Source of the DNA: Meghimatium bilineatum
Taxonomy: Eukaryota; Mollusca; Gastropoda; Stylommatophora; Philomycidae
Assembly: GCA_034231615.1 (NCBI GenBank)
Contig: CM067322.1
Location: forward strand, 64,509,349 to 64,573,348
Length of the DNA stretch: 64,000 nucleotides
Direction: 5' to 3'
In this document: positions 18,978 to 54,466 of the stretch, piece after piece
Position numbering within the stretch: the first letter of the stretch is position 1
Layout: every line of letters begins with the position of its first letter
Position numbers and translations under genes: made by a program
The notes under the pieces: model-generated
Told to the model about the DNA's origin: nothing
Database searches by the model: none
The model's input: the letters and a program-made list of their open reading frames with translations, nothing else

Positions 18978-19139
18978 CTCTATGACAATGACAGTTAGAC
19001 TCGTCTTGTCCGTCGACCATAAAAGCTGAAGCTTGAGCTTGCCAGTTGGCTTGATGGGCGGGGCATAGCGTGGAATCAATTCCTCAAGGTTAATCTCAGT
19101 CAGAGCCACGGGTGTGTCAGGTAAGCCAATAGCTTGACG
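18978..19139 (-). CDS. Exon 4 of minus-strand host gene: start of a C2-like domain
   Basis: A 162-nt, 54-codon, fully open segment in phase 0-0. The acceptor is a pyrimidine-rich TTTTGTGCTCTCCAG and the donor is GAG|GTAAGT, both strong consensus sites. The product starts RQAIGLPDTPVALTEIN, then EELIPRYAPPIKPTGKLKL and QLLWSTDKTSLTVIVIE. The final 22 residues have the alternating pattern and the 'G.L...L.W....L.V.VI' form of the first two strands of a C2 domain, such as RIM or rabphilin C2A, where a basic or acidic 'A..L' segment would follow in the next exon. That next exon was not found in 1-18977. No internal stop; codon use is balanced, unlike the LINE remnants. It lies 25.6 kb from exon 3, so symmetric exons between them may be missed. 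The identity as C2 is moderately sure; the gene name is not. Confidence 0.8.
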
Positions 19140-19309
19140 CTGGAGAGCACAAAATCGTATAAATGACTACATGACTATAAGTTTTATTTGCCTACTTACT
19201 GTTATTTATCGCTGTTTTGATGAATGCTAGTGAAGAATGTATACCAATAACATGCACATTTACTCAAATTACAAAGAAAGTCCCTTGTTCACATTGAGGC
19301 AAATGAGTG

Positions 19310-20460
19310 AGAGAGCAATATAATACAACAACAAACTAAACGCAATATTTATTGATCGGGAGAAAGCGTTTGATAGAGTCAACAGAGACGTACTATAGGA
19401 AACTCTAGAAATGCATTGTATCACATGAAAATTGTTTAAAAGTATACTATCTTTGTATAAGAACTGCCAATGCGTTGTAAGAACATCAGATGGTATTAAA
19501 GACGCATTTTAGACAAAAACGGGAGCGAGTCAGGGTTGCGTGCTCGGACCCTTGCTTTTCAATATATACATACATAAAATAATAAAAGTGGCAAAAAGTG
19601 CAGAGGACAACATAGCCGACTCAGTAACTCATAGTAACATAGCTCAGATCAATTAAAAAATGAACTAAATAAACTGCTTTTCGCATACGACCAGAGTCTC
19701 ATATACGAAAACGAAGAATAACTACAAAATCATGTTAACTCACTATAGAAAATACAACATGAAGATCAATACACAAAAGACGAAAACTATGAAAATATTC
19801 AGAACACCGAGCCCACAAAACGTACAGATAGACAACATAGTAGTAAAACACATATCGGAGTTCAAATATATCGGTAGTATTTTCACAGAAAATGGAAGCC
19901 TTGATAGATAGATAGAGATGAGATGTCTAAAGGAAAATGCAGTCACATACCTACTGTCACCACTACTTTGTCATCACAAGATCGAAGTGGAAGTTAAAAT
20001 ACAAATGATTTACAGTATATGCTTACCAACACTATGTTAACTGTGCCAAACCTGGTCTCTCTCATCTTCACATTACAGAAAAGATAGTGATATGTGAGAT
20101 AAAAAGATTGAGGAAAAATGTAGGAGTCACCAGGCTTGATAGATTACGAAATAAAGATATCAGGAAAAGAATATGTATAACACCTTGCACAGAATACATG
20201 AAACGGCAGCAGATTTTGTGTGGCCAGATTATGCGAATGCATCACAAGTTGCCCGTGCAGGCATATAACCAAATGAGATCAGAGTATAAAGACACAGAAA
20301 GACCAGACAAATCCAGACGAAAAAGATGGATAGAAAACGTTAGGGACATCTTGAACAAACACGGTCATAGCACAACCGAGGCAACACATCTGGCCTTGGA
20401 ACACGTTCGAGATCCAATAACCCCTACGCTTAATGACAAGAGTGGATAACAAACCACCTG
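19310..20460 (+). mobile_element. LINE F copy, RT through 3' end, heavily broken
   Basis: Plus strand. Blocks in order: motif A NAIFIDREKAFDRVNRDVL (19330-19395), motif B TGASQGCVLGPLLFNIYI (19515-19575), a decayed motif C (FSHTT where F/YADD is expected, near 19680), MKINTQKTKTMKI (19755-19800), FKYIGSIFTENGSL (19860-19905), LPTLC.LCQTWSL (20020-20060), then an open frame IEEKC/MICEIKRLRKNVGV to RWIENVRDILNKH (20087-20449). Multiple stops; the catalytic motif C is lost, so it is inactive. Confidence 0.88.
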
Positions 20461-20499
20461 AGGAAAGACAATAGACAAAAAAAGTATTCTTCTTATACT

Positions 20500-20770
20500 T
20501 CTTTCGTTCACTTGAAACATGTCTATATCCGTAATTCTGTCTCCTGAATTACAAAAGACTCACAGTAGTTCACAGTGGCCCATAGTGCTCTGATTCCAAT
20601 GTTGTTGTCTCTGGCCAATATTTCTGCCTCAGCGTTTCATACTCAGAACATTCTTGAAGTATATGTTTGGCACTCTGTGCTGCCTGTCCACATGTACACA
20701 TGGCCGTGTTGCCAATCTTGAATTTTGCGTACATGTGACTGCGGAATTAGTTGTGTCCAGTTCTGAGGCG
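20500..20770 (-). mobile_element. LINE H fragment 2: zinc-knuckle C-terminus
   Basis: Minus strand frame reads VKLRLRTGHN, then MYAKFKIGNTAMCTCGQAAQ and KHILQECSEYETLRQKYWPE. The knuckle is C-x-C-x8-H-x4-C, intact here. One stop follows RTGHN. It is the better-preserved copy of the 2570-2770 fragment, and adjoins the 3' end of the LINE F copy. Confidence 0.78.
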
Positions 20771-20912
20771 TAGCTTTACATCTCACGACTCTAGACCTCC
20801 ATCTAATAGCATCTATCCAAACTTAACATCTTACGACTCTAGACTTTCATGTAATAGCATATATCCAAACTTAACATCTCACGACTCTAGACCTTCATCT
20901 AATAGTTTCTAT
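20770..20912. repeat. 47-bp tandem repeat, 3 copies
   Basis: The unit is ACATCTCACGACTCTAGACC plus TTCATCTAATAGCATCTATCCAAACTT in two pieces. It begins inside the end of LINE H. Confidence 0.85.
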
Positions 20913-21295
20913 GAGAAAAGTTTGTGCAAGTATAACTTGATCAAGTTAAACAAACCATTAACCATTGGTTATTTACTTCTTTTGTTGAAAAAATGTATTC
21001 TGAAATGTCGCCTATAGAAATACAAATTGAATTTAAAATTCGACTTTTAGTTCTATGTTCTCGGATCGATTAATCCATATAATTTATGGCCGTACAAGGT
21101 ACATGAAACAATTGTTCTGTATAATATTTAATAATGAAAGAATTGATGTTCTGCTCAAATCAAAAATTGCTCAATCAATAATGCCAGGCAAAATTCACTG
21201 TTATTCTCCAGTTGATTTCCTTGTTCACGAACAGCAAATGAACAACTTTTTTGAAAGAATCAAGCCAACACGCGCTTTCCTGTAATTTTGTTAGT
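20913..21295. other. No gene seen
   Basis: One open frame of 76 codons at 21055-21285 (plus) lacks recognisable motifs or splice sites. I do not annotate it as a gene. Confidence 0.4.
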
Positions 21296-21688
21296 TGTTG
21301 TGTGTGCTCTTGCAATGTTTGCGAGTTTTTCTATGTGTGTTAAATGTTTGTCTGTGAAATGTTTCGTTGGGAATTGTTTGTAAAATGTTTGTAAAACATA
21401 CTTGTTAATGAAATGTTTATATGTGAAATGGTGTTCATGAATAGCTTGAATGTGAAATATATTTATGAAGTTCCTGTATGTGAAATATTTGTATATGAAT
21501 TCCTTCAATGTGAAAATATTTGTATAGATTAACTGCGTATTAAATATTTATATGATTTACTTTTATGTGAACTATTGTGTGAATGAATTGCTTTTATGTG
21601 AATTATAATTTATGTATGATTTGTTGCATGTTTTTCTATGAAATACGTTTCTATGAAATATTTGTCTATGAAAAGTGTGTCTATGAAA
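21296..21688. repeat. Degenerate short tandem repeat (TGTGAAATGTTTGTAT-like)
   Basis: Irregular 15-35 bp repeats around ATGAAATGTTTGTCT, TGTGAAATATTTGTATATG and similar. The same pattern continues at 22030-22450, so LINE D fragment 3 sits inside it. Confidence 0.75.
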
Positions 21689-21689
21689 A

Positions 21690-22026
21690 ATGTTAGTTCA
21701 TGGAATATCATGGAAGGAAAAAATCAGAAACTCAGATATTATAAACACATTGAAGATTCCAGAGTGTTGGTTACTAAACACAATAACAAAAAGATATCTA
21801 CACCTGTTTGGTCATAAAGAGACACAACTGTTTAGAAAGACGAATAATAGAGGGAATAGTACCTGGGTAGAGGAGAAAGGGCAGACCAAGAAGACGATGG
21901 ACTGACGACATTAAAGATAACTTGAATACATCGCCAGAAAGTGCAAGCCACATCGCCCAAGACAAAGAGAGGTTCATAGAATTCATTAGGAAGACAACGT
22001 TCAGGAAGGAATACGTCACATGACCA
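21690..22026 (+). mobile_element. LINE D fragment 3: post-RT region
   Basis: Plus strand. Blocks: ISWKEKIRNSDIINTLKIPE, CWLLNTITKRYLHLFGH, then (frameshift) RIIEGIVPG, RGKGRPRRRWTDDIKDN, and KTTFRKEYVT before the stop. The ending FRKEYVT matches the WKEYV end of other D copies. It has no tail of note, 5' truncated. Confidence 0.85.
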
Positions 22027-22029
22027 TGA

Positions 22030-22450
22030 AATGTTTGTATATGAAATGTTTATCTGAGAAATCTTTATATGTGAAACATTTCTCTATGGAATGTGTGTCT
22101 AAAATGTGTCTCTATTAAATGTTTTTCCTAAAAAAAATTTGGTCTATAAAACGTTTGTCGACGAAATGTTTGTCTATTAAATAATTGTCAATGAAACGTT
22201 TGTCTAGGAAATATGTTTCTATGAAAGCTTTGCCTATGAAACGTCTGTATGTGTAACATTCTATATTATGTAAAAAATGTTTAGAAAATGTTTATCTATG
22301 AAATGTTTTTTGTCTACGAAATGATCTGTATGACATTTTTGTCTATGAATTGTTTGTTCTTGAATTATTTGCGAATGAGTTGATTATACGTTAAATGTCT
22401 GTGAAATTATTATATGTAATATTTTTACGTGTAAAATGTATGTGGGTAGA
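22030..22450. repeat. Degenerate short tandem repeat, right arm
   Basis: Continuation of 21296-21688: TCTATGAAATGTTTGTCTA-like units with many changes. Confidence 0.75.
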
Positions 22451-22784
22451 TTAATATACAAAACACTTCATGTGATACGTAATTGAAAATTTAAAAAATA
22501 AATACACTTAACCTGATATGATGTGCTAAACCATCAATAAATATAAGAACTTCTGGCAATGAGAATCATTCTTTTAAAGTGGCGCATTTGGGTATTACAG
22601 TGATTTTCAGATGTTGTGTGCTTTAGATGCTGAGTGAGAGTTCATACGATGTTGTATGTGTTCTGATATGGCATTCGTGTTGTATGAGTGTTTGCTTATA
22701 GAAAACACTAGTGATATTCCTAAAGAGGACCCACGATAGCCAAGAAAAGAACTTATGCGTGTCCTGTATTTTTGTTATTTGCGC

Positions 22785-22940
22785 TCATGATCAAACTCCT
22801 ACCGCATTTCTCTTGTTGCAGAACAGAGGTCCTGTTATGGGAGAATAGGAGTGCGTTGTGCCGCCGCTTTGATTTGAGCCAGTGGCCCGACACATCCGTA
22901 TTCGACAAGCCTTTAATTCAGGTGGGGTTCCCTAGTCTGT
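22785..22940 (-). mobile_element. Possible degraded family 1 copy
   Basis: It keeps TCAAACTCCTACCGCATT, GAATAGGAGTGCGTTGTG and GCCCGACACATCCG in the family order, but the similarity between these islands is low. Confidence 0.35.
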
Positions 22941-24040
22941 GATATCCTTACTATCTGTCGCAACTCAGCGTGTATGTATTGACTCTACACCGATACGTTG
23001 TCGTATACGTCTATCTTGTACGAGGTGTTCCGCAGACAGTGAACTTGACTCATGTAATTAGTCACTTAGTAATTAGTATTGTTCCTGCCAATCAGGTGAA
23101 GGAAAAATTCGTCAGAAATGTTGGGACCGGGCTCGTTCGTCTATTTAGCCGAGGTATCATTCATTGTCGTCGTGAACCCCTCGTCCAAGTCTGAGTCTCA
23201 ACACACGTTTAGATGCACTTGGAACTAGAAGCGTATTCTCGAGCTGAAAAAAAAAACTTCCCATTTGACGTATTGTGCCTGAGCCCATCGGAAACGGAGC
23301 TCTTTCTCTCCGCGAGCATGATTCCAGTATAGGAAAAGCTCGACAGAAGAGTTGAACCCAGGCACGCATGCCTCTTTAGTCAAGCGTCCATGATTGGGCA
23401 TCTACCCATATTTTGGAGTGCTTGTGACTAGAAGCTTGTTCTCGAACTGAACAATACTTTAGTTTCGACTTCCATGTATCGTTTGGTTTCCTCCGTTCCA
23501 ACTGCACGTGGCGCTGTGTTTCTGACATCGTACTCATGTTATCTTTACGTGATCGGAGAGCCGACTACGACTCTGTATATTCATCATGACATCTACCCAT
23601 TTCATGGTATTTGTATTGGCCACCCCTCCAATGCTCTAACCGGACTGACCAGCGTTACTGTGTGTCGACGGTGCTGCTGGGTGTGTTAGCATAGATGTCT
23701 CAGAGATATTGCCTGTCTCTTTGCAATTCTCATTCCATATACAGCCACAACATCCACGGACACGAGCCTAAACTTATTGACCAGGAATGCAGCTAGAGCA
23801 GGACTTAATAATCTATAAATAAAATACAGAAATACACTTGTGGTATCTGCTGAAACAAATATCTGATTGGTGTATCGCTTGAAGGCTTACATAGTCTAAT
23901 TGAGCGTTCAAATGTAACACATTTTGTGGCTTCTAGTGTGTTTAGAATTTTTTTCACTTGAACGTGTTCCGGCACAATCAATGATAATTTGCATTTTAAA
24001 TGATTAGATCACTTAAACATGCATCCTTCTTTCAACCAAG
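22941..24040. other. No gene seen; tRNA-like head and a short repeated phrase
   Basis: The phrase ACTAGAAGCGTATTCTCGAG (23224-23243) recurs as ACTAGAAGCTTGTTCTCGAA (23428-23447) about 200 bp on. The region has a tRNA-like head at 23345-23405. Open frames of 70-74 codons show no known domain. Confidence 0.4.
23345..23405 (-). mobile_element. tRNA-like SINE head
   Basis: Minus strand: TAGATGCCCAATCATGGACG (A-box side) and GTGCCTGGGTTCAACTC (B box, GGGTTCAAC) with tRNA-like spacing. Confidence 0.5.
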
Positions 24041-24290
24041 TCTTCTACAGCGTTGGTTCTAAAACTTCTGCTGGCTAGCAGGATGTAATCTGACAGATTG
24101 GAACGAGTTTTGTGATTGTTTACAGCGCGGCGATTTTTTCACTTTCCTACCTGGCATATTCTACTTCGGCATTGCAGCAAATTCAATTTGCAGCTTTCCG
24201 TGAATGTGTTCCTACCTGGTATATTCTACTTCGGAATTGCAGCAAAGTCAATAAGCAGCTTTTCGTGAATGTGTATAAGCTCCGTGGTTA
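24041..24290 (-). mobile_element. Family 1 copy with internal 66-bp tandem duplication
   Basis: It keeps TTGGTTCTAAAACTTCTGC, TAGCAGGATGTAATCTGACAG and TTTACAGCGCGGCGAT. The segment beginning TTCCTACCTGGCATATTCTA (about 24147) is repeated once, with five or so changes, at about 24210. Diverged, so probably an older copy. Confidence 0.6.
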
Positions 24291-24690
24291 GTACACCGAC
24301 TGATAGCCTAAAGTCTTTTTTTCAAAAATTGTTTAGACCAACCGCTGTTAGGTTGGTCTAAAAGTCTAGGAAAATCACATTTTCATCAAAAGTGAAGGTG
24401 GTAGATATGGTGCGGATAACATCAATTTCAATACCATTGCTTAAAACGAAATTAGTTTTGCTGTATTGTAGCAAAAATCAAGAGAATATTTGCAACAGCA
24501 AGTTAACAATTAGCGTAAATGAAAAATCTTTGTCAATGCATCTGATGAAAAGTTTTGCTACACCTGAATGGAGCAAGCATTTTTCCAGTATTGGCACACA
24601 GAATTGCGGCCTTCGAAATAAGTTGTAACAAAAAGATTTTTGGGAACACCATGGACACTTTGAACTAAAATTACTAACTGTAGATATATA
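24291..24690. other. No gene seen
   Basis: Overlapping open frames of about 80 codons exist on both strands near 24392-24723. No motif, splice site or repeat family supports either as a gene. Confidence 0.4.
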
Positions 24691-24694
24691 GTGA

Positions 24695-24960
24695 TACTTA
24701 TTGAGTGTGTGTGACACACGCACTATAGTGATTATTTAGTGTGTGTGTGAGAGATACACGATCGATAGTGATGTCTATTGTGTTTGTGTGTGTGTTTCTG
24801 TGCGAGACACACGATCTATAGTGATGCCTATTGTGTGTGTGTGTTTGTAATACACACGACCTATAGTGTTTCCTATTGTGTGTGTGAGTAAGAAAGTGAG
24901 AGACGACCCATACGGATGCCTATTGTGTATGAGAGAAAGAGAGAGAAACAGAGAATGTGA
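24695..24960. repeat. GT-rich degenerate tandem repeat, about 65 bp, 4 copies
   Basis: Each unit has GTGTGTGTG, then ACACACGATC, then TATAGTGATGCCTATTGTG. Units differ by indels. Confidence 0.8.
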
Positions 24961-25144
24961 ACATAATGAGAGCGCTAGACCATGAAATGAATGACATGTT
25001 TGAATATAGACCGATGAAACCTGTCACAGTAACTGTTGTTATACAAGCTCACACGTGACATGTCCTATACACATATTAAATGTTAAGTATGAGAGAGAAC
25101 TCCACTGAACAGTATTTCTTATATTATTATTCAGTATATATTAG

Positions 25145-25260
25145 TCAGTCCATAGGACGTACTGGCAAGATACTTAAACCATTCGTGCTTGTGCTCAGGA
25201 GGTCACGGGTACAATCCTCCGTTCCAATGTCTTGTTTGCAAGTGTATGTCTTTCAAAGAT
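25145..25260 (+). mobile_element. tRNA-headed SINE fragment
   Basis: Plus strand. AGTCCATAGGACGTACTGGC looks like an A-box arm, and GGTCACGGGTACAATCC about 45 bases later is a near-consensus B box. A body of about 35 bases follows; no tail was recognised. Confidence 0.5.
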
Positions 25261-25372
25261 CCTTATCGTTTGAATTTACAGAGTTACACGCTATGAGTGG
25301 TAATCTTGGCAGGTCGAGTGCCAATTCGTTGAGAGAGGAGAGAAAATATCAGAAAATGCGAGTACAATAAAG

Positions 25373-25615
25373 TCAATTTTCTACTTCATCTGAGTCTTCG
25401 TGTGTTTTGGTTTCGTTATTAGGTTCACTCATTTTAGCAATACGCTTCCTGAACTCAGAGCACGTAATTTTGTAGCGAAGGTGAATGTTTCCAGGGATCT
25501 TAAAAATTAATATATTTGAAAACAGCTCGGTGAGTTCTGAGCATACCATGTGCGGGTGGATGCTGAGGTCAAGGCACTCATCTGAGAACATGCCGATGAC
25601 ACAGAAGTTGTGATT
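25373..25615 (-). other. Unrecognised ORF with acidic C-terminus
   Basis: An open minus-strand frame of about 80 codons ends in a stop at 25373. It contains MFSDECLDLSIHPHMVCSEL, LIFKIPGNIHLRYKITCSEF, RKRIAKM and an acidic end ETKTHEDSDEVEN. The composition looks protein-like rather than repeat-derived, but I recognise no family. There is no clear AG acceptor at its upstream edge and no AATAAA close behind the stop. It might be a terminal exon, a retrocopy fragment or chance. Confidence 0.3.
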
Positions 25616-27185
25616 TACACGGGTCGGTCATTCGCACCAGCGGTGCGCATGGACCTTTACTGCTGGTAACAAGGAGAAACAGTACACGAAGCCAGTGGGG
25701 CCTTTACCGCAACAACACGCAGTCTAACGAAGGAAGTGTTTGCTTTAAAACAGACACTTAATTATTTATAGTTGGAGTCGCAAGTCTATTCACGTGTGTC
25801 CATAAAAAGTTCCGCAATGAACATAATTTAGAAAGTTAAAACAGGTGATATGCGTAGGGGATGGGTGGAGTCATTAGAGAAAGAGTCAAACTGTTGGCCT
25901 CACAGCGGAAAAAGCAAGCTTATCTTTGTCTCCGGACACGTGGATAAAAACGAGCCGGTCGACCAATTAGTTAGCCTCGCCACCATAACAGATAGTCATC
26001 CTTTGGACAGAGCAGACATACTCAAACATTTTTCGTGAGTCCGCATGACCATAGGATTTTGAGATACATGAGTAAATATCGAAAATTTGGGAGTAATATT
26101 GGCCAGTAGAAAACACATAAAAGATTTAAACAAAGCATTGAACTAACATAGCGTTATACACTGATATATTTACTGAAGCGAAGCTCTGAACACATGGACA
26201 TTGCCTAACCTAATATAACATTTAAAAGCAAGACGGTGCAGTTAAAGTATGAACGTACACATTTGTGAACACATGTCAAGCGTCTGAATAATTGTACAAG
26301 GGATAGCTTCACACTTTGAAAATAGTATATTCTCAATGGCAATAAATTATACCAAATGATGTTATTGGCAAATGTATACATCTTTTACATATTTGTATAA
26401 TGTTGTCCTTTGTAAATGTTATAGTTTTACCTCAGTGATTCATGTTATAAGTGCGGGCAGGTTATATCAGCTAAGACTGTCTTACATACAGGACCTGCTG
26501 GTTAATGGGAAATCAAGCCTTCTTAATGTCTTCTTCTACCATTCCCATGATTTTCTTTGGTCACTATAAATATATTTTGTGTGGAAGTCCTCATTTTCCA
26601 CTAGCCATTAGATCTTAAATCGTAGACGGTCATGTATGAGCACATACCTGACAAGATCATAGCTGCATCGACGCTCTCGTCTCAATAATCCGCCAAAGTG
26701 TATCAGCTTGCAGTTTCAGTTCATTATTGATTAATCAGTCTCTCGTGTTATGTCTTTCTGCTGATCTATCTGTTGTGGATCCCCATACAACCTCAATTAT
26801 TGTCCTCACATTTATTACATGAAGTAACGCTTATGCTCCAGATATTTCACAGACTACATCAGCTCCGTGTGATTTGTTTTAATGAGAAAAAAATCTGTAA
26901 TTAATTTTAAATATGTTTTATCCCTACAATCTTGTTATTGTTAGCGGATATTTCACATCCAAAATAGCCACCAGTGATGTTTTATATGTGTGAAGCAAAC
27001 TACTTTTATGTGCATGCGTGTTTGTGGCGTCTGAAATGAGAGCAAAGAATACGACTCCTTTTAGGTCTGAAACAGGTCAGATGTTTCTTATTCGAGTCGG
27101 AAAGAAGCTTGATATGAGATTATGCGGGAAGCTCATGCTTACGAATATGTTCCATAATTTTAATGTGTTACACAGTCATAGGCTT
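25616..27185. other. No gene seen
   Basis: AT-rich DNA with no supported gene or repeat copy. The phrase ATGGGAAATCAAGCCTTCT at 26508-26526 occurs again at 37235-37253 beside the inverted-repeat unit; I cannot say whether this is shared ancestry. Confidence 0.4.
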
Positions 27186-27189
27186 GTGA

Positions 27190-27830
27190 GTATCTGTGAA
27201 ACAGGTGTATATGTCTGCATTAAGTATCTATGAAACAGGTGTATATGTCTGCATTAAGTATCTGTGAAACAGGTGTATATGTCTGCATTAAGTATCTGTG
27301 AAACAGGTGTATATGTCTGCATTGAGTATCTGTGAAACAGGTGTATATGTCTGCATTGAGTATCTGTGAAACAGGTGTATATGTCTGCATTGAGTATCTG
27401 TGAAACAGCTGTATATGTCTGCATTGAGTATCTGTGAAACAGGTGTATATGTCTGCATTGAGTATCTGTGAAACAGGTGTATATGTCTGCATTAAGTATC
27501 TGTGAAACAGGTGTATATGTCTGCATTAAGTATCTGTGAAACAGGTGTATATGTCTGCATTAAGTATCTGTGAAACAGGTGTATATGTCTGCATTGAGTT
27601 TCTGTGAAACAGCTGTATATGTCTGCATTGAGTATCTGTGAAACAGCTGTATATGTCTGCATTGAGTATCTGTGAAACAGGTGTATATGTCTGCATTGAG
27701 TATCTGTGAAACAGGTGTATATGTCTGCATTAAGTATCTGTGAAACAGGTGTATATGTCTGCATTAAGTATCTGTGAAACAGCTGTATATGTCTTTATTG
27801 AGTATTTCTGAAACAGGTGTATATGTGCGC
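27190..27830. repeat. 34-bp minisatellite, about 18-19 copies
   Basis: The unit is AAGTATCTGTGAAACAGGTG plus TATATGTCTGCATT. Point variants (AAGTATC/GAGTATC, ACAGGTG/ACAGCTG) are distributed in blocks, suggesting later duplication of groups of units. Confidence 0.95.
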
Positions 27831-28670
27831 ATTGATTTTCTTATATTTATTTATTATATGTTTCATATTGAAGATGTGATCCCTAGTACATCTGTTCTGA
27901 CTTGAACCTGATTGGGTTATATTAATTTCTCTTTCCATATTTTCCATTATTTGTATGGTTATCTTGAGAAGTTCTTACTGGCATGACTGGTCAAAGGAAT
28001 TTATCTGTAATTTATGTATAGTTGCAAGTTATCTTTCTTCAGAAGTGGTATATATACTCATGTTTTCCAATATTATGCCATATTTCGCTTCCCTATATTT
28101 TATCACAAATAGCATAATAGACTTGGACACTTGAGTTCTACTCCTATCTGAACTATATTCCGCTAATCTGCTTCTGAAAAATAACGTAGAGGAAACCATT
28201 TGTTTGTCTTCTAACACTGCGTTGTTATGAATTCTTTTATTTATATTACAACACATTTCAAGAATCGTATAAAGACAATGGAGAATGTTATAACAGATAG
28301 TTCAAGGGCTGCATGTCTTTAAAAAAAGACGCAGAAGAGCATACGGTGGTATAAGTGGGCTTCTGTTTATGTACATATATCGGATTTTGTACATATTTTG
28401 TATATATATCATTGTGGCTCAGATTGGTTTTGTGCGTCACATCCATAATTTACCATGAATCTTAGATTATATTTTGTATAGCATAATATTAATACTATCG
28501 TCTAGAATGACGTAAAGTTTCCTACCTGCCTACTTATTCACACACCTTGTGCAATGCAACAACTAGTTTTAGTAATATTTTTAATTCAAGCTCTATTATT
28601 TTACCAGACAATGATACTTTTATTTTTCCATATATGTTTCATAAACATCCATAGTATTCTTTTTGTTCTA
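27831..28670. other. No gene seen
   Basis: No supported coding or repeat feature. Confidence 0.45.
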
Positions 28671-28675
28671 GCATG

Positions 28676-28800
28676 ACTTTCATCATCATCACTTGCCAAT
28701 TTTGCATAGACTGTTGGATGCAACGGCGTTCCAACATCTACTGCGTTTTCCCTTCTTAATGCACTCTGATGGGTTATATTTTATCCGGGCATCTCATTAT
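28676..28800 (-). mobile_element. Weak LINE 3'-end fragment
   Basis: It begins with (CATCAT)n on the plus strand, as LINE C and D 3' ends do. The minus strand then reads EGKTQ and MLERRCIQQSMQNWQ in a broken frame, reminiscent of a LINE C-terminus. Confidence 0.35.
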
Positions 28801-28994
28801 GTTTCCCTTCCATTTGCATCTTTTCCTACCTCCTGCGTGTCGCCTCTCAACTCTACATTCAAGAAAGGTATTCAACAAGGTGATGTCGTTTTATATGTCA
28901 AAAATAGTTTGTGTTCTTTATTTTATTTCTTTTAAATAATATTTTGTTAGGTGTCAACTGCATAACACAGGTATAACTAATTAGATCTAGTATA

Positions 28995-29393: not shown

Positions 29394-29394
29394 T

Positions 29395-29500: not shown

Positions 29501-29504
29501 TGTT

Positions 29505-30090: not shown

Positions 30091-30094
30091 TACA

Positions 30095-44168: not shown

Positions 44169-44174
44169 CTTGTT

Positions 44175-44710: not shown

Positions 44711-44841
44711 CTTGTGTTTCTTCTTGACGTAAGGAGGTATGACAGCATTTCCGGTTTGATCTAGTGCGGCCAGACTACTGAATACGAGACTTGACAGCGT
44801 GGACCGGCGTTCGGTGGCTCTGGAACCAGCAGGTGGTCGGC
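44711..44841 (-). CDS. Exon 3 of minus-strand host gene
   Basis: 131 nt with acceptor CCCACTCTTCCTACATTAG and donor CACAAG|GTGGGC, in phase 1-0. With the G left from exon 2 it starts with Gly, then RPPAGSRATERRSTLSSLVF, SSLAALDQTGNAVIPPYV and KKKHK. No stops in this frame. It contains another basic-Ser/Thr site (RRSTLSS) and ends in a lysine-rich patch just before exon 4. The frame could run open further upstream past the acceptor, so the 5' border depends on the AG chosen. This choice gives a proper phase match with exon 2. There is no known domain. A linker ahead of a C2 domain would fit. An AT microsatellite lies 80 bp upstream in the intron. Confidence 0.7.
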
Positions 44842-44949
44842 CTAATGTAGGAAGAGTGGGTGGAACGTTTTCATAATGTAAATGATTATGTTGGGTGTTT
44901 TGTGGACATATGAACATAAACAATGTATGTATACATACATACATATATA

Positions 44950-45053
<104 letters not shown>

Positions 45054-45129
45054 ATTGGTGGTTAGAATAGCTGATGAAGGACAGATTTGTAGTAGTTGTG
45101 TATATAGGTGAAGAGCTCAGAGGATAAAA

Positions 45130-45345
45130 GAAAAATATCTATCTATCGATCATATTCGCTAAAACCCTTTGTTGTCTTTCAGCGTCATGGGTAGAAGAGT
45201 TTTCTGGAGATGGCCCTCTTGTGAGCTTAGTATATTGTGGACTTCGTAGCCTCTTTTATTTCAGTGGACCACTTTTTTCTCGGTCGGTCTCTAGGTCTGC
45301 CTTCGATATATCTGTGTAGCGTAGCTTGCTGTGGTATACTGTCTG
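45130..45345 (-). mobile_element. LINE F fragment, 3' end with tail
   Basis: Plus strand starts ATCTATCTATCGATC, the complement of the (GATA)n tail, then CTTTCAGCGTCATGGGTAGA, GTTTTCTGGAGATGGCC and a decayed GRP..RWI block (CTCGGTCGGTCTCTAGGTCT). Confidence 0.75.
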
Positions 45346-45349
45346 ATGA

Positions 45350-45705
45350 TGATGGTATTCCTCCTTCGCAAGCGAAGATGATCATGGCATGAAAAAAAAA
45401 ATTAGAATTGGTAATTGTCTAAATTGGTTTGTGAGTTCGTAGATGTCCGATGAGTCCGATTCGTGCACGGAAAGCTTTATTGCAGTGCATGCAGGAGTGG
45501 TGAAGGTTCGGGTAGGTGTTTTTCGGATTTGTCCTTCTGCTTCTTGATCTTGTGGATTGCCCACAGTGTTCTTTTTTTTCCCTTCAAATTTCGATATGCC
45601 AGCAGTGATATGGGTGTGCCATGCTGAGCGATCAAATGCTGTAGTCTCCCAGGAGCTAGGATCGATGATGCAGTGCTTGAGAGAGCTTTTTAAGTGATCC
45701 TAAAG
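45350..45705 (-). mobile_element. LINE Z fragment 2: C2H2 finger and 3' UTR
   Basis: Minus strand frame CMHCNKAFRARIGLIGHLRT then HK: a C-x2-C-x12-H-x3-H finger, intact here. Upstream, in the same strand, it reads WDYSI(..)SAWHTHITAGI-like sequence equivalent to that in the 14.8-kb copy. The 3' end carries ATGCCATGATCATC..GCTTGCGAAGGAGGAAT and a (CATCAT)n tail. Confidence 0.85.
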
Positions 45706-46430
45706 AGCTTTTTCAAATATATTCTTCTTACACATATATATTTACTCTTCTGTGAGAAATCGTTAAACATAAATCTAATATGGGTCTTGTAAAGATCGGT
45801 TTGTTTTAAGTCATCTTGATTAAGTATAATGTACCTCTTATGGTAATGTATGCTACTTTGAATTGTGAGCGTTAGTTTAATTCGGTTTCATCAGTTAAAC
45901 ATAAAAAATAGTGAAGGTCGCTGTTCTGGAAATTTAGTGGGTACGAGAACCGGACGTATTCTTAAGATCATCTTGTGTTCCCCACAACTTGTTTTTGAAG
46001 AGAATCTCATGTAGGTCAGATTGTGGTTCTTTAATACAGTGTGACACTGGGACATTCATATAGCAGCGTTCTTGTGTCTGTGCTACTGCTACGCAGGCCA
46101 GACAGTCTCTGATAACCCGGTGCAAGTGTGGTTTTAGACAGTAGTGTCCCGTTTTAGTCGAAAAATTGCTGCTTGTTCATGTCTGTACAAGTTATTAATG
46201 TTTTGCTCAGGACTATAGTTTCCATATAGATGTTCCACTGAAGTCGCATAGATATTTTAAGCAGATACTATACTTTCCACAAGCTTTGTGGTGCGCAAGT
46301 TCTTAGATGGTCGTCTCCTAGTTTTGCCAGTTCGTCGATATATATTTATATATATATATATATGTGTATTTTATTGATAGATGATATATAAGTCGAATGA
46401 TGGATCTATCATTATGTATACGGAAAAATG
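45706..46430. other. No gene seen
   Basis: A short AT run lies near 46340-46365. The rest shows no supported feature. Confidence 0.45.
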
Positions 46431-46439
46431 ATGTGGTAG

Positions 46440-46880
46440 ATTTTTAAATATATGAATGGATAAATCGATGTGTATTTGTGTGGATAGATAAAAGTGTATT
46501 TATATAGATAGATGTGTGTGAATAGGTGGATGTGTGTATATGGATAGATAGATGGATGTGTGTGGATAGATAGATGGATGTGTGTGGATATATGATGAAA
46601 TGTATGTCTGTAGATAGATAGATGTGTATATGGATCGATAGATGGATGTGTGTGGATATATGATGAAATGTATGTCTGTAGATAGATAGATGTGTATATG
46701 GATCGATAGATGGATGTGTGTGGATATATGATGAAATGTATGTCTGTAGATAGATAAATGTGTATATGGATCGATAGATGGATGTGTGTGGATATATGAT
46801 AAAATGTATGTCTATAGATAGATAGATGTGCATGGATAGAGATTATGTATGTGTCTGGATAGATGGATATATATATGTGT
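46440..46880. repeat. GATA/GATG-rich repeat with 68-bp higher unit
   Basis: Between about 46565 and 46820 a 68-bp unit (GATAGATGGATGTGTGTGGA, TATATGATGAAATGTATGTC, TGTAGATAGATAGATGTGTA, TATGGATC) is repeated nearly four times, nested in looser GATA repeats. Confidence 0.88.
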
Positions 46881-46893
46881 GAATAGATTATAT

Positions 46894-47167
46894 TCTTCTT
46901 CTTCTGTGTTCGTTCTCAAATTCCTGCAGATTAGTAGGATGTAGTCCGGAGAACGGAATGCGCTGTGTCATGTTTTACAGCATTGCTGCGATATCTGCGT
47001 CTTTCGGCCTGACACATCCGACTTCAGATGACTTTGGATCACTGACCTTATATGGGATGGGACAGCCAACTCCATCCCATAACATCAGTCGCCTTTTACG
47101 ATATGCGTGGAAGGTAAACAGTGTTGCTATTCTTTGCTCCCATTTCGGGCCTCGGCAACACACGGGC
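46894..47167 (-). mobile_element. Family 1 copy with 13-bp target duplication
   Basis: GAATAGATTATAT is perfect at 46881-46893 and 47168-47180. It inserted into a GATA/TATG tandem array. Close to consensus, with a small deletion after CCCATAACAT. Confidence 0.93.
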
Positions 47168-47180
47168 GAATAGATTATAT

Positions 47181-47459
47181 GTATGTGAATATATATATGT
47201 GCATATGTGTGTGTATAGACAGATGTGTATGATTGTGGTTAGACAAAAGTGCATACGCAGATCAATAATTGGATGTTTATGTAAATGGATCAAAGGATTA
47301 GTATGTGGAAAGATGTGAATAGATGGATGTATATGTGGGCGGATAGATGTATGTGTGTGCATGGGGGCAGATGAATGTGTATGTATGTGGATAGATGGAT
47401 GTGTATGTGGATATATGGATGTGTATGTGGATAGATAGATGTGTATATATGTCAAACGA
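47181..47459. repeat. ATGTGTATG / GATAGATG low-complexity array
   Basis: Irregular repeats of TGTATGTGGATAGATGGATG-like sequence leading into the 24-bp array. Confidence 0.8.
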
Positions 47460-48090
47460 TGAAAGTGTATGTATATTGAGAGATGTAAGTGTATGTATAT
47501 TGAGAGATGTAAGTGTATGTATATTGAGAGATGTAAGTGTATGCATATTGAGAGATGTAAGTGTATGTATATTGAGAGATGTAAGTGTATGTATATTGAG
47601 AGATGTAAGTGTATGTATATTGAGAGATGTAAGTGTATGCATATTGAGATATGTAAGTGTATGCATATTGAGAGATGTAAGTGTATGTATATTGAGAGAT
47701 GTAAGTGTATGCATATTGCGAGATGTAAGTGTATGTATATTGAGAGATGTAAGTGTATGTATATGAGAGATGGATGTGTATGCATATTGAGAGATGTAAG
47801 TGTATGTATATTGAGAGATGTAAGTGTATGTATATTGAGAGATGTAAGTGTATGCATATTGAGAGATGTAAGTGTATGTATATTGAGAGATGTAAGTGTA
47901 TGCATATTGAGAGATGTAAGTGTATGTATATTGAGAGATGTAAGTGTATGCATATTGCGAGATGTAAGTGTATGTATATTGAGAGATGTAAGTGTATGTA
48001 TATTGAGAGATGTAAGTGTATGTATATTGAGAGATGTAAGTGTATGTATATTGAGAGATGTAAGTATATGTATATTGAGAGATGGACGTG
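47460..48090. repeat. 24-bp minisatellite, about 26 copies
   Basis: The unit is TATTGAGAGATGTAAGTGTA plus TGTA or TGCA. The period is a multiple of three, so frames up to 292 codons are open on both strands (YIERCKCM, HTLTSLNI types). I regard none as a gene. The rare variant GCATATTGCG occurs at 47711 and 47950, 239 bp apart. Confidence 0.96.
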
Positions 48091-48460
48091 TATTGTGTGG
48101 ATAGTTGTAAAAGATTATGTGTATGTGTTTGTATAGATGGATGTGTATGTATTTCTATACATGGATGTGTATGCATATGGATAGATAAATGTGTGTGTGT
48201 GTGTGTGTGTGAATATATTGAAGTACATATATTTGGATATATTGAAGTGTATGTGTGTGAATCGATGTAATTGTTTGTATGTGGATAGATGAATTTGTAT
48301 GGATGTCTATAGATAGAATGTATGCATGTTCATAGACGAAAGTGTATGTATGTGGATATATGTTAAATTTATGTTTAGATAAATGGATGAATAGCTTAAT
48401 AAAGCGTTGATTGGTGAGTGGATAGATGTATGGATAGAGGATTAATATATGAGTTAATAA
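48091..48460. repeat. GATG/TGTG low-complexity flank
   Basis: Degenerate TGTATGTGGATAGATG repeats with a (GT)n run near 48190-48210. Confidence 0.75.
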
Positions 48461-48469
48461 GAGTCGAGT

Positions 48470-48900
48470 GTTCATTCATTCATTGGTACATGCCTTCCGG
48501 CGTAGGCGATCATGTCTCTCCACAATCCTCTGTTTGTTATACATTTAAATATAGTTTCTGATGATTCTGTATCATGACAGGCTTTCAAGCCATCCACCAT
48601 TTTCTCACGTTGTTGTCCTCTGTCTCTCTTACCCTCGATCTTTCCAGTTGTTAGTATGTTCTCCAGCCCACCTCTTCTGATGACATGACCAAGCAACTGT
48701 GATTGTCGTCTTCTAATACAGTAAATAAGTTCTCTATTTGAGATGATGAGTTGTAGAATTATCATTACTCTTTTTAGCTGTCCATGATATTTTCAACATT
48801 CTTCTATAAAACCACATGTCTGTGGACTCCAGATGTTTTCTTTCAATATTGTCAATTGTCCATGCTTCACTACTTATACCATATGGTCGAGCATAGATTC
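48470..48900 (-). mobile_element. LINE E fragment: post-RT region
   Basis: Minus strand: YGISSEAWTIDNIERKHLES, TDMWFYRRMLKISW, then RRRQSQLLGHVIRRGGLENI, GKIEGKRDRGQQREKMVDGL and LWRDMIAYAGRHVPMNE. The 3' end has an (AATG)n tail. One frameshift lies between the halves. Confidence 0.85.
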
Positions 48901-48944
48901 ATGGATAGATTAGATTATAGACTGCACAAGTAAGTTTATCTATC

Positions 48945-49065
48945 TATCTTTCTATTCGTTAAACCCCTTATTGCCTTTCAGCGTCAGGGGTAGAAGAGTT
49001 TTCTGGAGAAGGCTCTCTTGTGTGCTGACGCATTCGTCTGTGGTCTACATAGCTTGTACTATTAA
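48945..49065 (-). mobile_element. LINE F fragment, 3' end with GATA tail
   Basis: Plus strand TTTATCTATCTATC, then CCTTATTGCCTTTCAGCGTC, AGGGGTAGAAGAGTTTTCTG. About 110 bp only: a very short insertion. Confidence 0.75.
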
Positions 49066-49852
49066 TGACAAGATTAAGTGGTTATGTGCCTTTCAATAGG
49101 TAGGTTGTTAGATGAATGGGTACAAGGGTGTATTAGTCAATTAATTAATGTCAATTAAATTGTGTAATTAATGAGAGATTGAGTTTCTGGAAATGTGAGT
49201 GCTTCGTTGAGAGCTCTTGATTTGTTTTATTCTGTTGATTTAAAACTCTCAATATAGAAATACTTACAATTTAGTTCGTGTTACCACTGCATATGTATGT
49301 TCTTGTTTGCGCATGCCACAGTTTACTTGTTTACAATCACTGCACTATTGTTTTTCTGTGTTTTGATACATGAGTTAAATGTTCATGGTAGATTAATCAA
49401 TTAGTTTGTTAATTCAAGTAGACTAGGGCTCATTGAAAATGTTATATCAATTTTGTATTTTGTCCTGTTTGATGAACACTGTTTCCTGCATCTGATTTCT
49501 TTTTAGAGGAACAGTGGTAGTGTACTGTTGAATCACTAGTCCGCCGGCCAGCAGATTAGTTCAATAGTTAAATCGTTATTTGTGGTTGGTAATAAAAAAT
49601 ACTACAGTGGTTCACCAAACCTCAAACGAAGTGGAGTACCACGACTCATTCTCTGGGAAGTTCGAGGTGTGGCACTCCAGCAGCTGAGAAAGTACGGTAG
49701 GCGAAGCTGATCAAGCAGTTTCTATTCAACCATTAATTAGGAATCTGAGTACTATTTACAAAAACCTGTGCTATAACGTTGATTCACAACTCAGGATATC
49801 TTAAGTTAGTTGCTTGTGTAATGTATACAATATCTTTATGAGCAAAATGTAC
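49066..49852. other. No gene seen (intron 2)
   Basis: No supported feature between LINE F and exon 2. Confidence 0.45.
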
Positions 49853-50041
49853 CTTCTTGTTGGGCAGCAAGTTTCTCCCTTTCTCTTTCAGCCTGCAGCT
49901 CTGCCAAAGAATGAGATCTGCGATAAGGAGGAGTTTGTTCCTTATATGGTCTTGTGACATCGTAGCTAATTCGACGGGGAGGATACCTCATACCAGGGTA
50001 CCGACCTTCTTCTATATCATAGTTCTCCGTGTCTGAAAGAT
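49853..50041 (-). CDS. Exon 2 of minus-strand host gene
   Basis: 189 nt, phase 1-1, with acceptor TGTTACTTCACAG and donor GAAG|GTACAT. Only one of three frames is open and it codes 62 whole residues: LSDTENYDIEEGRYPGMRYP, PRRISYDVTRPYKEQTPPYR, RSHSLAELQAEREREKLAAQ and QE. The first half is acidic and Tyr/Pro-rich; the second half, from SLAEL, is predicted helical and highly charged. RRIS is a PKA-type site and RRSHS a further basic-Ser site. The Asp formed across the exon 1/2 junction (G|AT) and the Gly across exon 2/3 (G|GC) keep the frame. Codon composition is unlike the AT-rich surroundings. The exon is clearly coding to my eye, but I recognise no family from it alone. Confidence 0.85.
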
Positions 50042-51149
50042 CTGTGAAGTAACAATGAATATATATTTTTGTAGTTATGTTTATGTCTTGTATTTCTTCT
50101 AATAGGGACGATGAAACTGTCCTGTAAATGCTATTGTGCTTTAGAAGATTTCTTTATGTGCGAACATGTTTGACAAAATTACTCATTAGAGATGCTAGCT
50201 ATGGACAACCAAAAAAAATGCAGAACAATATTACATAAAACCTTGGAAATTGATTGATATAAATAACCAAATGGTCAGAGGGTGTCCGACAAAGTGGATG
50301 GTGCCGCAGTAACCTAATGAACAAATAGTAACGCAAAATGAGGTAAACAGGTTACTAAAACACTTACCTAGCCTATTAATAAAAATATATTAATTAAAAA
50401 AAAACATACAATAAAACTAAACAGGACAATTCTCCACGTATCGGCTCAAATGGAACCTTTGATTACTTTAAATTGATTGACTATGTTCTGAGAAGAAACT
50501 AAGACGGTATTTCAAGATGTGCCTTTTAACATAGAACGATGAAGGAAAGCGTATACATGAAAGACCAAAGACTAATTAGTAAAGAAGTACAAGAACGGTT
50601 ATCAAGGATATCCTTCAATTATAATTATTTATGATTTTTTACAATAAGTATAGATCTCTAAAGTAATACCTTTCTTTCAAGCATTTGTGTACATTAAGCA
50701 TTTCCATAGCGCATCAGTGGCGTGAGTATAATAAACTTCCCTGTCGTCAGTGTGAGCACAAATTGTCAGTTCGCAATGGTATATCGAGTGGGAAATGTCA
50801 TATACCATTTATGTTTTATAAGCCACAGAAGAATATTACGTCATCAGCGCTTAACCAACATCCTGTACGGAAACCCGAATTCACGTATTTTCAAAGAGTG
50901 TTATTTTAGTGACATAAACCGTTGTTGATGTTCGTCCATTACAAGTGGTAATAACGATTTGTTACATCCACTTTTTAAATTCAGTTAGACTCGCGGATGT
51001 GAAAATGACTAGCACTGTAGATAGTTATTAAAGTGAGGAAGGGTTGTGTAAAGCGTAGACCTCACTCCTTGTCAGACCTCATTTTAAACAAGTGGAAGAC
51101 AAATAAAGATGTGAAGACAAGGAAATAAAATTCGATGCTGAGGATGCCC
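50042..51149. other. No gene seen (intron 1)
   Basis: A 74-codon plus-strand frame at 50685-50909 contains two Cys pairs but has no splice sites I trust; I do not call it. Confidence 0.4.
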
Positions 51150-51800
51150 ATAGTTTTTTTGCGTGTCTCACTATGCTTTATGCGGTCTATACCGTGTTAG
51201 AGGAATTCGCCTTCATACCCAATGGGTCGATAACTTTATCATGCATCTACGCATAAAGTCGCCGAATATCAGACGTTACGTGTTATGGGTCACAACGCCG
51301 TCGTGTTTTTTGTTTTTTGACAGTCTCAACAAGACATCGTCAACTGTATGCCTTCCTATCAGACTGTCAGCCGAAGGTGGAACCTGAACATCTCTCATGC
51401 CGTCCACTGGGGATGTTCACAGGATAGGCTCACATACTATATGGTACAACATGAGAACTTCACATTAAATGTATGATTTATGGTGCAGGGAAGTCTGGGG
51501 ATTTTCGACCCATCCAAGCCCAAAGTCAGAAAATAACTATCACACCACCAGGAGGGCAGGTTTTTACATAGATACTGCTCCGAGCAGCTGCAGATAATAT
51601 AACGCTCAGTGCGCTCATTCTTCGCCACCATTTGCTTACTGGTTATGCCGATCTTCTCTATGGCCCCATGCATCCAACGGAATGTTCACGGCATAGGGAT
51701 TGATACATCCAGAGTCACTGTGCCTTTACTTCAGCCATTGCAAAACAGTGCAGTCAGTTCCCCCACCCTAGTGCTGCACAGTACACTTCGGACCCCCTCC
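51150..51800. other. Unrecognised GC-richer segment with open frames on both strands
   Basis: It is less AT-rich than its surroundings. The minus strand has an open frame of 78 codons (51437-51673) including EKIGITSKQMVAKNERTE, SCSEQYLCKNLPSWWCDSYF and LGLDGSKIPRLPC. The plus strand has 74 codons at 51163-51387. I recognise neither. It might be an unlisted mobile element, since repeat B follows at 51945. Confidence 0.35.
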
Positions 51801-51944
51801 TAACCACCGAGGGTGCATACATATATACTAATGACAATGCATATAAAAAACACAAAATACAACAACACATGAAATGAATAATTGTATGAATGATACAAAC
51901 AAAGTTTCATATGAGAGATTCAATATAACAGTATGTCATTTACT

Positions 51945-52020
51945 AAGGTTTTCTGTTGCATGGGTGGTTTATCTAGTGGGTGGGCATTGGTAAGACCCAC
52001 AGACGCAACCGCATGCGTAC
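51945..52020 (-). mobile_element. Dispersed repeat B, short reverse copy
   Basis: Reverse complement reads GCATGCGGTTGCGTCTGTGG, CCACTAGATAAACCACCCAT and GCAACAGAAAACC. This matches the left end of the 58128 copy and part of the 15246 copy. Confidence 0.75.
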
Positions 52021-52435
52021 ATTAAATATATCAAATGTGATCTTCTCTTTTATGGCAGTTTCTATACTACTATTTCATTAGTTTCAAAATGAGTGTTCAT
52101 AAAGTCACGTCAAAAAAGAATGGCAATTGTGAGGTGAATTTCTCTGCATAAACTGAATAACATTACAATCTATGTCTTATCGAAGTGTACCCAGTTCCAC
52201 AACAATGTAAACAATGTTAAAGATGGCGAAACAATCCAAATATATATATATATATTGATATGATTTCTTTTTGAAACAATACACTGTATAATGTTAACTG
52301 TAGGTTATGGAACATTATTCTTCATAGCTTGACCATGGCTTAATAGCTCGGCCATGACTTAATAGCTTTACATGGTAAAACCAGATCAACTAATATTAAA
52401 AAAAGACTAAGCAGAATATTTCAGTTACCAAACTT
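52021..52435. other. No gene seen (intron 1)
   Basis: Includes a short AT run near 52240-52258; nothing else is supported. Confidence 0.45.
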
Positions 52436-52440
52436 AAGAT

Positions 52441-53375
52441 CATCATCATCAAGTGCCGTCTCCGCAACGAAGGTTGGCTGCATCGTATCTCCGACATCTC
52501 CTGTCTCTTGTCTTGGTGGTGCACTCTGCTAGACTGTAACCTGTCCATCGTGTAATGTTACTCTCCCACGTGTATCTCTGCCTACCTCTTGCTCGCTTCC
52601 CTTTGACTTTACACTCTAGTAAGGTCTTCAGTAGGGTGTCATGTCTTTTAATGTGTCCAAAGTATTTTATTTGCCTGATCTTTATTTCTCTTAGTAGTTC
52701 TTTCTCAATATTAAGTATCTTTATCACCTCTTTATTTGTTTTCTTCTCTTTCCATGATATTCTCCCTATTCTTCCTATATACCCACATCTCAAGGCATCA
52801 ATTTTGTATTCTAATTGTTTATTTAGTGTCTCATGTTTCTGAGCCATACATTAATATGGAATAGATGTAGCATTTTATAATTCTCATTTTTAACTTGTTT
52901 GTAATTTGTTTAGATATTAATAATTTCCTCATGCCATTGAAGATACTTTTAGCCATTCCTATCTCCTTTTAACTTCTGTTTCACATCTGCCATCATTTGT
53001 GACTATGTGTCCAAGATATTGATACTGTTTTACTTGTTGTAGTTTCTCTCCCTGTATGTTTATGTTTATCTCCTGTTCTTCTGTGTCTTTGCTGATTATA
53101 ATGGTTTTTGTTTTTTGAATGTTTATATCCAGTCCATATTCATTACTTGATTTATTGACTTGATCTAGTAGTCTTTGTAGTTCATGTTCACTTTCTGCTA
53201 AAAGAACAGTGTCATCTGCATATCTAATGTTTGTTTATTATTTTCCATTGATCTTGAGTCCTGGTGTTTCTTATATATTTTAAAGATATTCTCCTGTGTA
53301 GATATTAAATAGGTTTGGTGATAAAATGCATCCTTGTCTTACCCCTTTTCTTATTTCTATGTATGGAGAAACTTA
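52441..53375 (-). mobile_element. LINE C copy 2: RT motifs B-C through 3' end
   Basis: Minus strand. Motif B IRKGVRQGCILSPNLFNIYT (53365-53300), motif C ADDTVLLAESEHELQ with the preceding RY (53225-53180), YGLDINIQKTKTIIISKDTE (53145-53085), QYQYLGHIVTNDGRCETEVK (53020-52965), ISWKEKKTNKEVIKILN (52770-52720), RQIKYFGHIKRHDTLLKTLL (52680-52620), GKRARGRQRYTWESNITRWT. The 3' end has a (CATCAT)n tract on the plus strand. Catalytic YADD is kept but there are stops and frameshifts and no 5' half. Confidence 0.9.
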
Positions 53376-53761
53376 AGATACAAGTACTGAAAAGATAACT
53401 TCTAACAAAACCACTGAGATTACCGTTTATTGCAAAAAGAAAACAAACACAGGTGGCAAAAATATCAAATCATTTTTTACGCAGGAATTAACTTTACATC
53501 TCAACAACAAAGTCAGTCTTATAAAATGTAATCTTGAAATACCTATTTTTACATATTTTGTAAATCTATCTTACTATGTGTTTGAAATTTCAATCGTCCA
53601 TGTTCGGCTAGGTACCTGGCTGATCATGCACCGAAGGGAAGAGCAAAGAGAAAAGTGGTTTTGTTACAATCTTAAAGGAGGTTTTGAGGGTGTGCTTGAC
53701 TATCCATACCATTCCATAGAGATTAAAAGTTACCCACCAGCAACACTTTTCGTAACATAAT

Positions 53762-53873
53762 GTAGCTATCGCAGTCAAGCTGTAAACCATGATACATCAC
53801 ATTCCGATCTCCAAGCTATATCCTGCTAATCTTTAAGAGTTGAAAATAGATGCAGAAGAGGATGATGATTTGA
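53762..53873 (+). mobile_element. Family 1 fragment, sense orientation
   Basis: It reads GCTGTAAACCATGATACATC, CATTCCGATCTCCAAGCTAT and ATCCTGCTAAT, the reverse complement of the family core, with a GAAGAGGATGATGAT tail. Confidence 0.7.
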
Positions 53874-54262
53874 TTATGATGTATAGTTTTGTTTGAATCA
53901 ATTATCGACATATTAAATATGGTTTTAAAATAGCTAGAAAGTCGTAGAAGATTGACTGTACTGTACTCAAGTAGTCTATGCCTGTCAAAAATATAGCTTG
54001 GAGATTGTAATTCTGTAACTCTGGAGATAATATCCGGGATAATTAATAAATGCATAGGGTTCTTATGTAATACAATGGACTGCGGTATGATTTCAAACTG
54101 GCAATCTTGATACACAATTTTCATACTATCAACAAATTTTGGCTGGATGTCTCGAAATTTAAATGATTCAGTATTTTACCAAATGCGTTTTGTTCCTACC
54201 CGTCTATTTTCAGATAAAGCATTTCTTCAGAATAAAACTAACTAGGAAACCATCAAACGTAC

Positions 54263-54466
54263 CCGCAAGAGAGACGTCTGTATCATCAATGCGACTTCCA
54301 TCGGAACCTTTCCGACTGCTCCGACTGCTCGCTGACCCCCTTCTATCTGACTGATCAGAGAATATGGACGTTCTTCGACTTCCCACACTGGAGGCAGAGC
54401 CACGTCTGTCGGTGTCTGAGGCAAAGGAGGTTCGTCGACCTTCCCATGCTGGAATTTGAGCCACGT
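54263..54466 (-). CDS. Exon 1 (as seen) of minus-strand host gene: serial RRxS motifs
   Basis: 204 nt, phase 1-1; acceptor GTTATTTCTTGCAG, donor GCGG|GTACGT. Codes 67 whole residues: VAQIPAWEGRRTSFASDTDR, RGSASSVGSRRTSIFSDQSD, RRGSASSRSSRKGSDGSRID and DTDVSLA. Five basic-basic-x-Ser sites occur in about 45 residues (RRTS, RRGS, RRTS, RRGS, RKGS), the consensus for PKA-type kinases. It is low-complexity and probably disordered. The repeats RRGSASS and RRTS(F/I) suggest internal duplication of a short module. The acceptor shows there is at least one more upstream exon, to the right, which I did not find in 54467-64000. A cytosolic, phosphorylated scaffold is my inference. An alternate frame is also open for 76 codons but does not fit the phase of exon 2. 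Confidence 0.85.

Follow-up and report, generated by a model that had tools for sequence, protein, structure and literature searches.

Four consecutive minus-strand exons of a probable synaptotagmin 21 gene in a repeat-rich 64-kb stretch of Meghimatium bilineatum DNA

The 64,000 nucleotides of Meghimatium bilineatum DNA analysed here (contig CM067322.1, positions 64,509,349 to 64,573,348; hereafter the window) very probably lie inside one large minus-strand gene of heterobranch gastropods, that for synaptotagmin 21 (Syt21), of which they would hold four consecutive internal exons and whose product is predicted to have a calcium-independent, kinase-tuned C2 function. A first-pass annotation made from the letters alone had proposed a four-exon host gene between positions 18,978 and 54,466 on the strength of splice sites, open frames and codon phases. 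Judged from sequence, that gene is real and correctly joined, a piece of ordinary biology correctly predicted. The coding content of the window is confined to a linker and the first strands of the first C2 domain (C2A). The features, in the order of transcription, are listed below; numbers such as P0036 denote proteins of relatives.

54467..64000, minus strand: N-terminal exon sought without success; probably intronic, within the intron that precedes exon 1
54263..54466, minus strand: exon 1 of the window, from splice sites and frame; RRxS linker array (RRTS, RRGS, RRTS, RRGS, RKGS); end phase 1
54437..54442, minus strand: one-base frame change relative to Candidula P0036 and Elysia P0003 and P0021, from tblastn, three-frame reading and alignment
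50042..54262, minus strand: intron 1; 4,221 bases, phase 1
49853..50041, minus strand: exon 2; DLSDTENYDIEEG...RRISYDV...PPYRRSHSLAELQAEREREKLAAQQE; phase 1 to phase 1
44842..49852, minus strand: intron 2; 5,011 bases, phase 1; four tandem arrays inside
44711..44841, minus strand: exon 3; GRPPAGSRATERRSTLSSLVFSSLAALDQTGNAVIPPYVKKKHK; phase 1 to phase 0
19140..44710, minus strand: intron 3; 25,571 bases, phase 0; contains tandem arrays and remnants of reverse transcriptase
18978..19139, minus strand: exon 4; RQAIGLPDTPVALTEINLEELIPRYAPPIKPTGKLKLQLLWSTDKTSLTVIVIE; pre-C2A segment and opening strands of C2A; phase 0 at both ends
1..18977, minus strand: C2 exon sought without success; probably intronic, within the next intron (phase 0)

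All four segments lie on the minus strand where they had been placed, with canonical splice sites at 8 of 8 positions. The acceptors of exons 1 to 4 read cttgcag/ACG, ttcacag/ATC, acattag/GCC and tctccag/CGT and the donors TTGCGG/gtacgt, AAGAAG/gtacat, CACAAG/gtgggc and ATAGAG/gtaagt; the junction phases are 1, 1 and 0, with codons split as G/AT and G/GC at the first two. Together the exons measure 686 bases, or 1.07% of the window, and contain 228 codons, with two further bases left from the split codon at the start. They are also free of repeats, as had been claimed: when the window was compared with itself at an E value of 1e-5, no self-repeat base fell in any of the four, and one weaker self-match (E 2e-4) falls within exon 1, between a part of it and the 5' end of the exon, and reflects its RRxS repeat. 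Each segment had been credited with one open frame, which is correct for exons 2–4 and for exon 1 apart from its nine opening residues, where the relatives use another frame.

The evidence that joins the exons comes from relatives. A protein search with the joined four-exon peptide gave 19 matches under an E cut-off of 10, with 7e-91 as the best value, and a longer query gave 26 at 1e-10; the search with the longer query, like one further protein search, scored only the approximately 8,000 candidates that share most words with the query. Exon by exon, 41 of 42 fetched proteins matched at least one exon; these proteins had been picked by similarity to the exons, and it is the order and abutment of the matches, not the match itself, that forms the test. 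Two or more exons were matched by 27 relatives, every one of them colinear with the window, and all four by 14 of the 42, from gastropods and bivalves. The four blocks lie end to end in Elysia crispata P0021 (residues 14-71, 72-134, 135-179 and 180-233), with no residue missing or spare, exons 1, 2 and 3 abut in Elysia P0003 and Biomphalaria P0004, and Candidula P0002 crosses exons 2, 3 and 4 with two extra residues at one junction; protein models from other species thus span all three junctions. Identities by blastp were 57/58 (Elysia P0021), 56/58 (Biomphalaria P0004) and 55/58 (Littorina P0006) for exon 1; 57/63 (Elysia P0021 and, equally, Plakobranchus P0005) and 55/63 (Candidula P0002) for exon 2; 43/44 (Candidula P0002) and 41/45 (Elysia P0021) for exon 3; and 51/54 (Candidula P0002), 48/54 (Elysia P0021) and 35/51 (Lottia P0009) for exon 4. 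The window protein is 93-94% identical to Elysia, with 93% over 167 residues for P0003. These data argue that the four exons form one minus-strand host gene, in the order first given.

Several observations weigh against so simple a picture. The relatives are mostly predicted gene models. Three of them (Biomphalaria P0004, Plakobranchus P0005 and Littorina P0006) end at the exon 3/exon 4 junction, in KKHK or KKHKV, and Littorina P0038 begins exactly there. Aplysia P0023 and Candidula P0002 have no exon 1 and carry other residues ahead of exon 2; exon 1 contains one frame change compared with its relatives; and the kinase, calcium and localisation parts of the mechanism proposed below are predictions from sequence. 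The models that stop or start at exactly the same junction, together with the 25.6-kb intron that separates exons 3 and 4 here, would fit two neighbouring genes, one with exons 1–3 and the other with exon 4. We rejected this highly improbable arrangement because single chains span the junction in other molluscs: the 14 proteins with all four exons hold them in one chain, and P0021, P0002 and P0036 pass from exon 3 to exon 4 without a gap. In Littorina, P0006 and P0038 are encoded on contigs of equal length, which suits two halves of one gene. Protein hits that placed the exons in different genes had been named beforehand as the outcome that would speak against the joining, and the outcome favours one gene despite some split gastropod models. 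The split in Biomphalaria, Plakobranchus and Littorina itself suggests that a long, annotation-breaking intron lies at this position in other gastropods too. Elysia P0003 and P0021 start immediately ahead of exon 1. The differing starts of these two and of P0023 and P0002 may mean that other first exons are used or that long introns have cut the models short.

We also asked how often the structural features alone would arise. Under a single set of thresholds we counted 39 candidate exons and 1,878 phase-compatible four-exon chains on the minus strand, against 48 and 5,688 on the plus strand and 8-30 and 0-731 in 20 sequences shuffled by dinucleotide. Splice sites, open frames and phases by themselves are therefore not beyond chance and are no proof of a gene model; because thousands of compatible chains exist, protein homology, not splice phases, decides it. 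Although the number of such chains would allow the four open frames and their splice sites to have arisen by chance, the E values of the joined peptide, down to 7e-91, and the exact abutment of the blocks in Elysia refute that explanation, whose probability we put at practically nil.

The family to which this single gene belongs is indicated by Lottia P0009, a protein named synaptotagmin 21 at its source, which is identical to the window at 20/33 residues of exon 3 and 35/51 of exon 4. It contains two C2 stretches (Pfam, E 3.2e-33) and matches synaptotagmin 1 (Syt1) across both C2 domains in PDB (E 6.8e-33). Chains made of a membrane helix, an RRxS linker and two C2 domains in gastropods, bivalves and, in part, cephalopods contain the window exons. 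Pfam and PDB searches with the exons alone gave no match, and no C2 domain was called from exon 4 alone, because exon 4 encodes only the first C2 strands. RIM and Piccolo, considered at first, were dropped, since the protein and PDB matches indicate a synaptotagmin. On these alignments the host gene is predicted to be the orthologue of Lottia Syt21, a member of a gene family that is already known and little studied. The passages of Craxton (2010; PMC2823689) on this family list Syt21 among the synaptotagmin groups absent in vertebrates and call its proteins "completely uncharacterised", and a whole-word literature search for the name Syt21 found only this article among the matches listed, with a word-start match also in the unrelated PMC5430821. 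The window resembles Syt21 (P0009; PMC2823689) in its order of linker and then C2A, and its three junction phases, 1, 1 and 0, fit the legend of additional file 39 (the Syt21 alignment), where only intron phases 0 and +1 are mentioned (PMC2823689). The donor of exon 4 is likewise in phase 0, whereas the acceptor before exon 1 is probably in phase 2, against the 0 and +1 of that legend. The window further differs in holding only the linker and the start of C2A, and in that the acceptor before exon 1 breaks the RRxS array, which is unbroken in the single-ORF (open reading frame) relatives P0008 and P0010; this may point to an intron gain in heterobranchs. Syt-alpha, like Syt21 an invertebrate-only synaptotagmin group, has a motif just upstream of C2A and is, as that article describes it, a separate group (PMC2823689).

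The same orthologous group appears in the records under at least eight names: synaptotagmin-1, -7-like, -11-like, -15, -17-like, -C-like and 21, and EF-hand protein 5-like. The Aplysia record (P0023), for example, is misnamed synaptotagmin-1, and a Littorina record is called an EF-hand protein. All named protein matches are from molluscs; this does not show a mollusc-only gene, because two of the protein searches scored only the approximately 8,000 word-sharing candidates.

A tree of 13 rows grouped the window with Elysia, Plakobranchus, Aplysia, Biomphalaria and both Candidula rows with 100/99 support, and five other gastropods fell outside this group. By taxonomy Elysia, Candidula and Biomphalaria belong to the Heterobranchia and Littorina to the Caenogastropoda; Aplysia and Plakobranchus we take to be heterobranchs. 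The tree thus places the source of the window no more finely than among the heterobranch gastropods.

We looked for the missing ends of the gene in both flanks. On the minus strand of 1-18977, tblastn with the C2 regions of Elysia and Aplysia revealed no C2 exon (best E 4.5), and none of the three minus frames of 1-19000 gave a Pfam match to C2. On the other side, tblastn with the N-terminal parts of the Patella, Littorina and Candidula proteins (best E 1.2) and a Pfam scan found no N-terminal exon on the minus strand of 54467-64000. Nor did an intact exon of either kind turn up elsewhere in the window. Rfam and transfer RNA scans were empty. A control of sensitivity with overlapping Elysia pieces of 25, 35 and 50 residues recovered 20 of 20, 19 of 19 and 17 of 17, respectively, the pieces being 85-98% alike; the negative result for an N-terminal exon carries less weight than the one for a C2 exon, because its queries were taken from snails less closely related than the Elysia of the control. 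Because neither exon was found, the gene probably runs past both ends of the window, so that the whole 64 kb would belong to it and its length would exceed 64 kb.

The start of exon 1 had to be read anew. With Candidula P0036 as the tblastn query, residues 133-143 aligned at 54474-54442 in frame -2 and residues 145-199 at 54437-54273 in frame -3; upstream of the switch the conserved frame encodes RGSNSSMG, and downstream the frame encoding RRTSFASD takes over. The exon starts in Elysia P0003 and P0021 and in Candidula P0036 as RGSNSSMGSRRTS. The nine residues first read here, VAQIPAWEG, are out of frame with these relatives and are doubtful as protein because the same bases, read in another frame, give RGSNSSMG, identical to the sequence of all three; they are probably not protein, and the true start phase of exon 1 is probably 2, not 1 as first read. 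That this species might truly begin exon 1 with VAQIPAWEG, by way of a differently phased upstream exon, fits a frame that stays open to the acceptor and past it, but we rejected this coding reading, which we consider very unlikely, on account of the conserved RGSNSSMG in the other frame. The frame change itself may be a sequencing or assembly error, an allele or a sign of decay. Were the window to hold a decaying paralogue or a broken allele, the family and exon order would be the same and the frame change would make the copy non-functional; besides the change itself, the existence of two divergent Candidula versions, P0002 and P0036, on contigs that differ in length, which points to duplicates in at least one related lineage, would suit this. 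Yet the other three exons and the remainder of exon 1 are open, all eight splice sites are canonical, the protein retains its 93-94% identity to Elysia on a short end branch (0.018), and a single-base assembly error would give the same picture; we therefore judge decay unlikely. The window lies far nearer to P0002 than to P0036, and that pair was likely produced by a duplication in the Candidula lineage.

Intron 3 had been described as about 25.6 kb long and as holding most of the LINEs (long interspersed elements) and satellites of the window. The length stands; "most" does not. Intron 3 makes up 40% of the window and contains 11 of its 29 tandem arrays, 3,177 of 9,629 tandem-array bases (33%) and 7,023 of 20,756 self-repeat bases (34%). 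Reverse transcriptase rose above the Pfam cut-off in three places (approximately 5.5-6.6, 10.5-10.8 and 36.1-36.5 kb), one of them inside intron 3, in a partial Pfam survey that covered the minus strand of 1-19000 and 54200-64000 in three frames and, elsewhere, ORFs chosen out of 20; weaker matches lie at 19.7-19.9 and 55.5-55.9 kb. The ORF at 5468-6619 on the minus strand encodes 383 residues of reverse transcriptase (Pfam E 2.3e-29) and represents a retroelement in the flanking intron. In intron 2, the tandem array at 47458-48093 has a 48-base unit (24-base basic unit) with 95% matches and several long open frames on both strands. Lying in introns, the repeats would be spliced out, with no role required of them.

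The architecture of the relatives suggests how the protein might work. A membrane helix lies near the N-terminus in all seven relatives tested (best 19-residue hydropathy 2.4-2.9), as in Syt1, with which the relatives also share tandem C2 domains and the C2 fold family; in contrast to Syt1, their linker is much longer and carries a phosphosite-like array. The window has 7 R-R/K-x-S/T sites in 219 residues, compared with a mean of 0.9 and a maximum of 4 in 2,000 shuffles, and the linker of the relatives carries about a dozen, with 7-14 before C2A and none after it (19 of 19). At the alignment columns of what we take to be the ten calcium-loop aspartates of Syt1, Lottia P0009 keeps one, in the second C2 domain (C2B), and has the other nine replaced. 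Across 20 proteins, the loop-1 column of C2A is N in all 20 and its loop-3 columns are S, H (E once) and H, with no aspartate in loop 3; the loop-1 column of C2B is N in 19 and D in the oddly aligned P0031, and loop 3 reads H, D, and H or Q. The five-aspartate loops of calcium-triggered C2 domains (Syt1, 7 and 9) are thus absent from the relatives, in which, rather than in the window, this was judged. Because nearly all the calcium-binding aspartates are replaced there, the C2 pair of Syt21 most likely does not sense calcium. The N-terminal helix would anchor the protein in the vesicle or plasma membrane, the C2 domains, lacking the usual calcium binding, may bridge membranes or SNARE-type partners, and basophilic kinases of the PKA or CaMKII type could act on the linker sites and so set the reach or availability of the protein. 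It is a tentative and on balance rather improbable proposal that molluscan Syt21 is a calcium-blind protein that reads the cyclic-AMP or kinase state through a linker dense in PKA/CaMKII-type sites and thereby gates vesicle docking or release.

A tool-free reading of splice sites and phases was enough to find a true gene, on 1.07% of the bases of the window, although phases alone were no proof. For annotation, the result is a correction: one orthologous group bears many names and is split, in several snails, at a junction that spans 25.6 kb here. A conserved phosphosite-like linker next to calcium-ligand-poor C2 domains offers a clear hypothesis in animals used to study synaptic plasticity, and, if it were true, the Aplysia orthologue P0023 would be a candidate effector, in the classic molluscan models, of presynaptic plasticity that depends on kinases.

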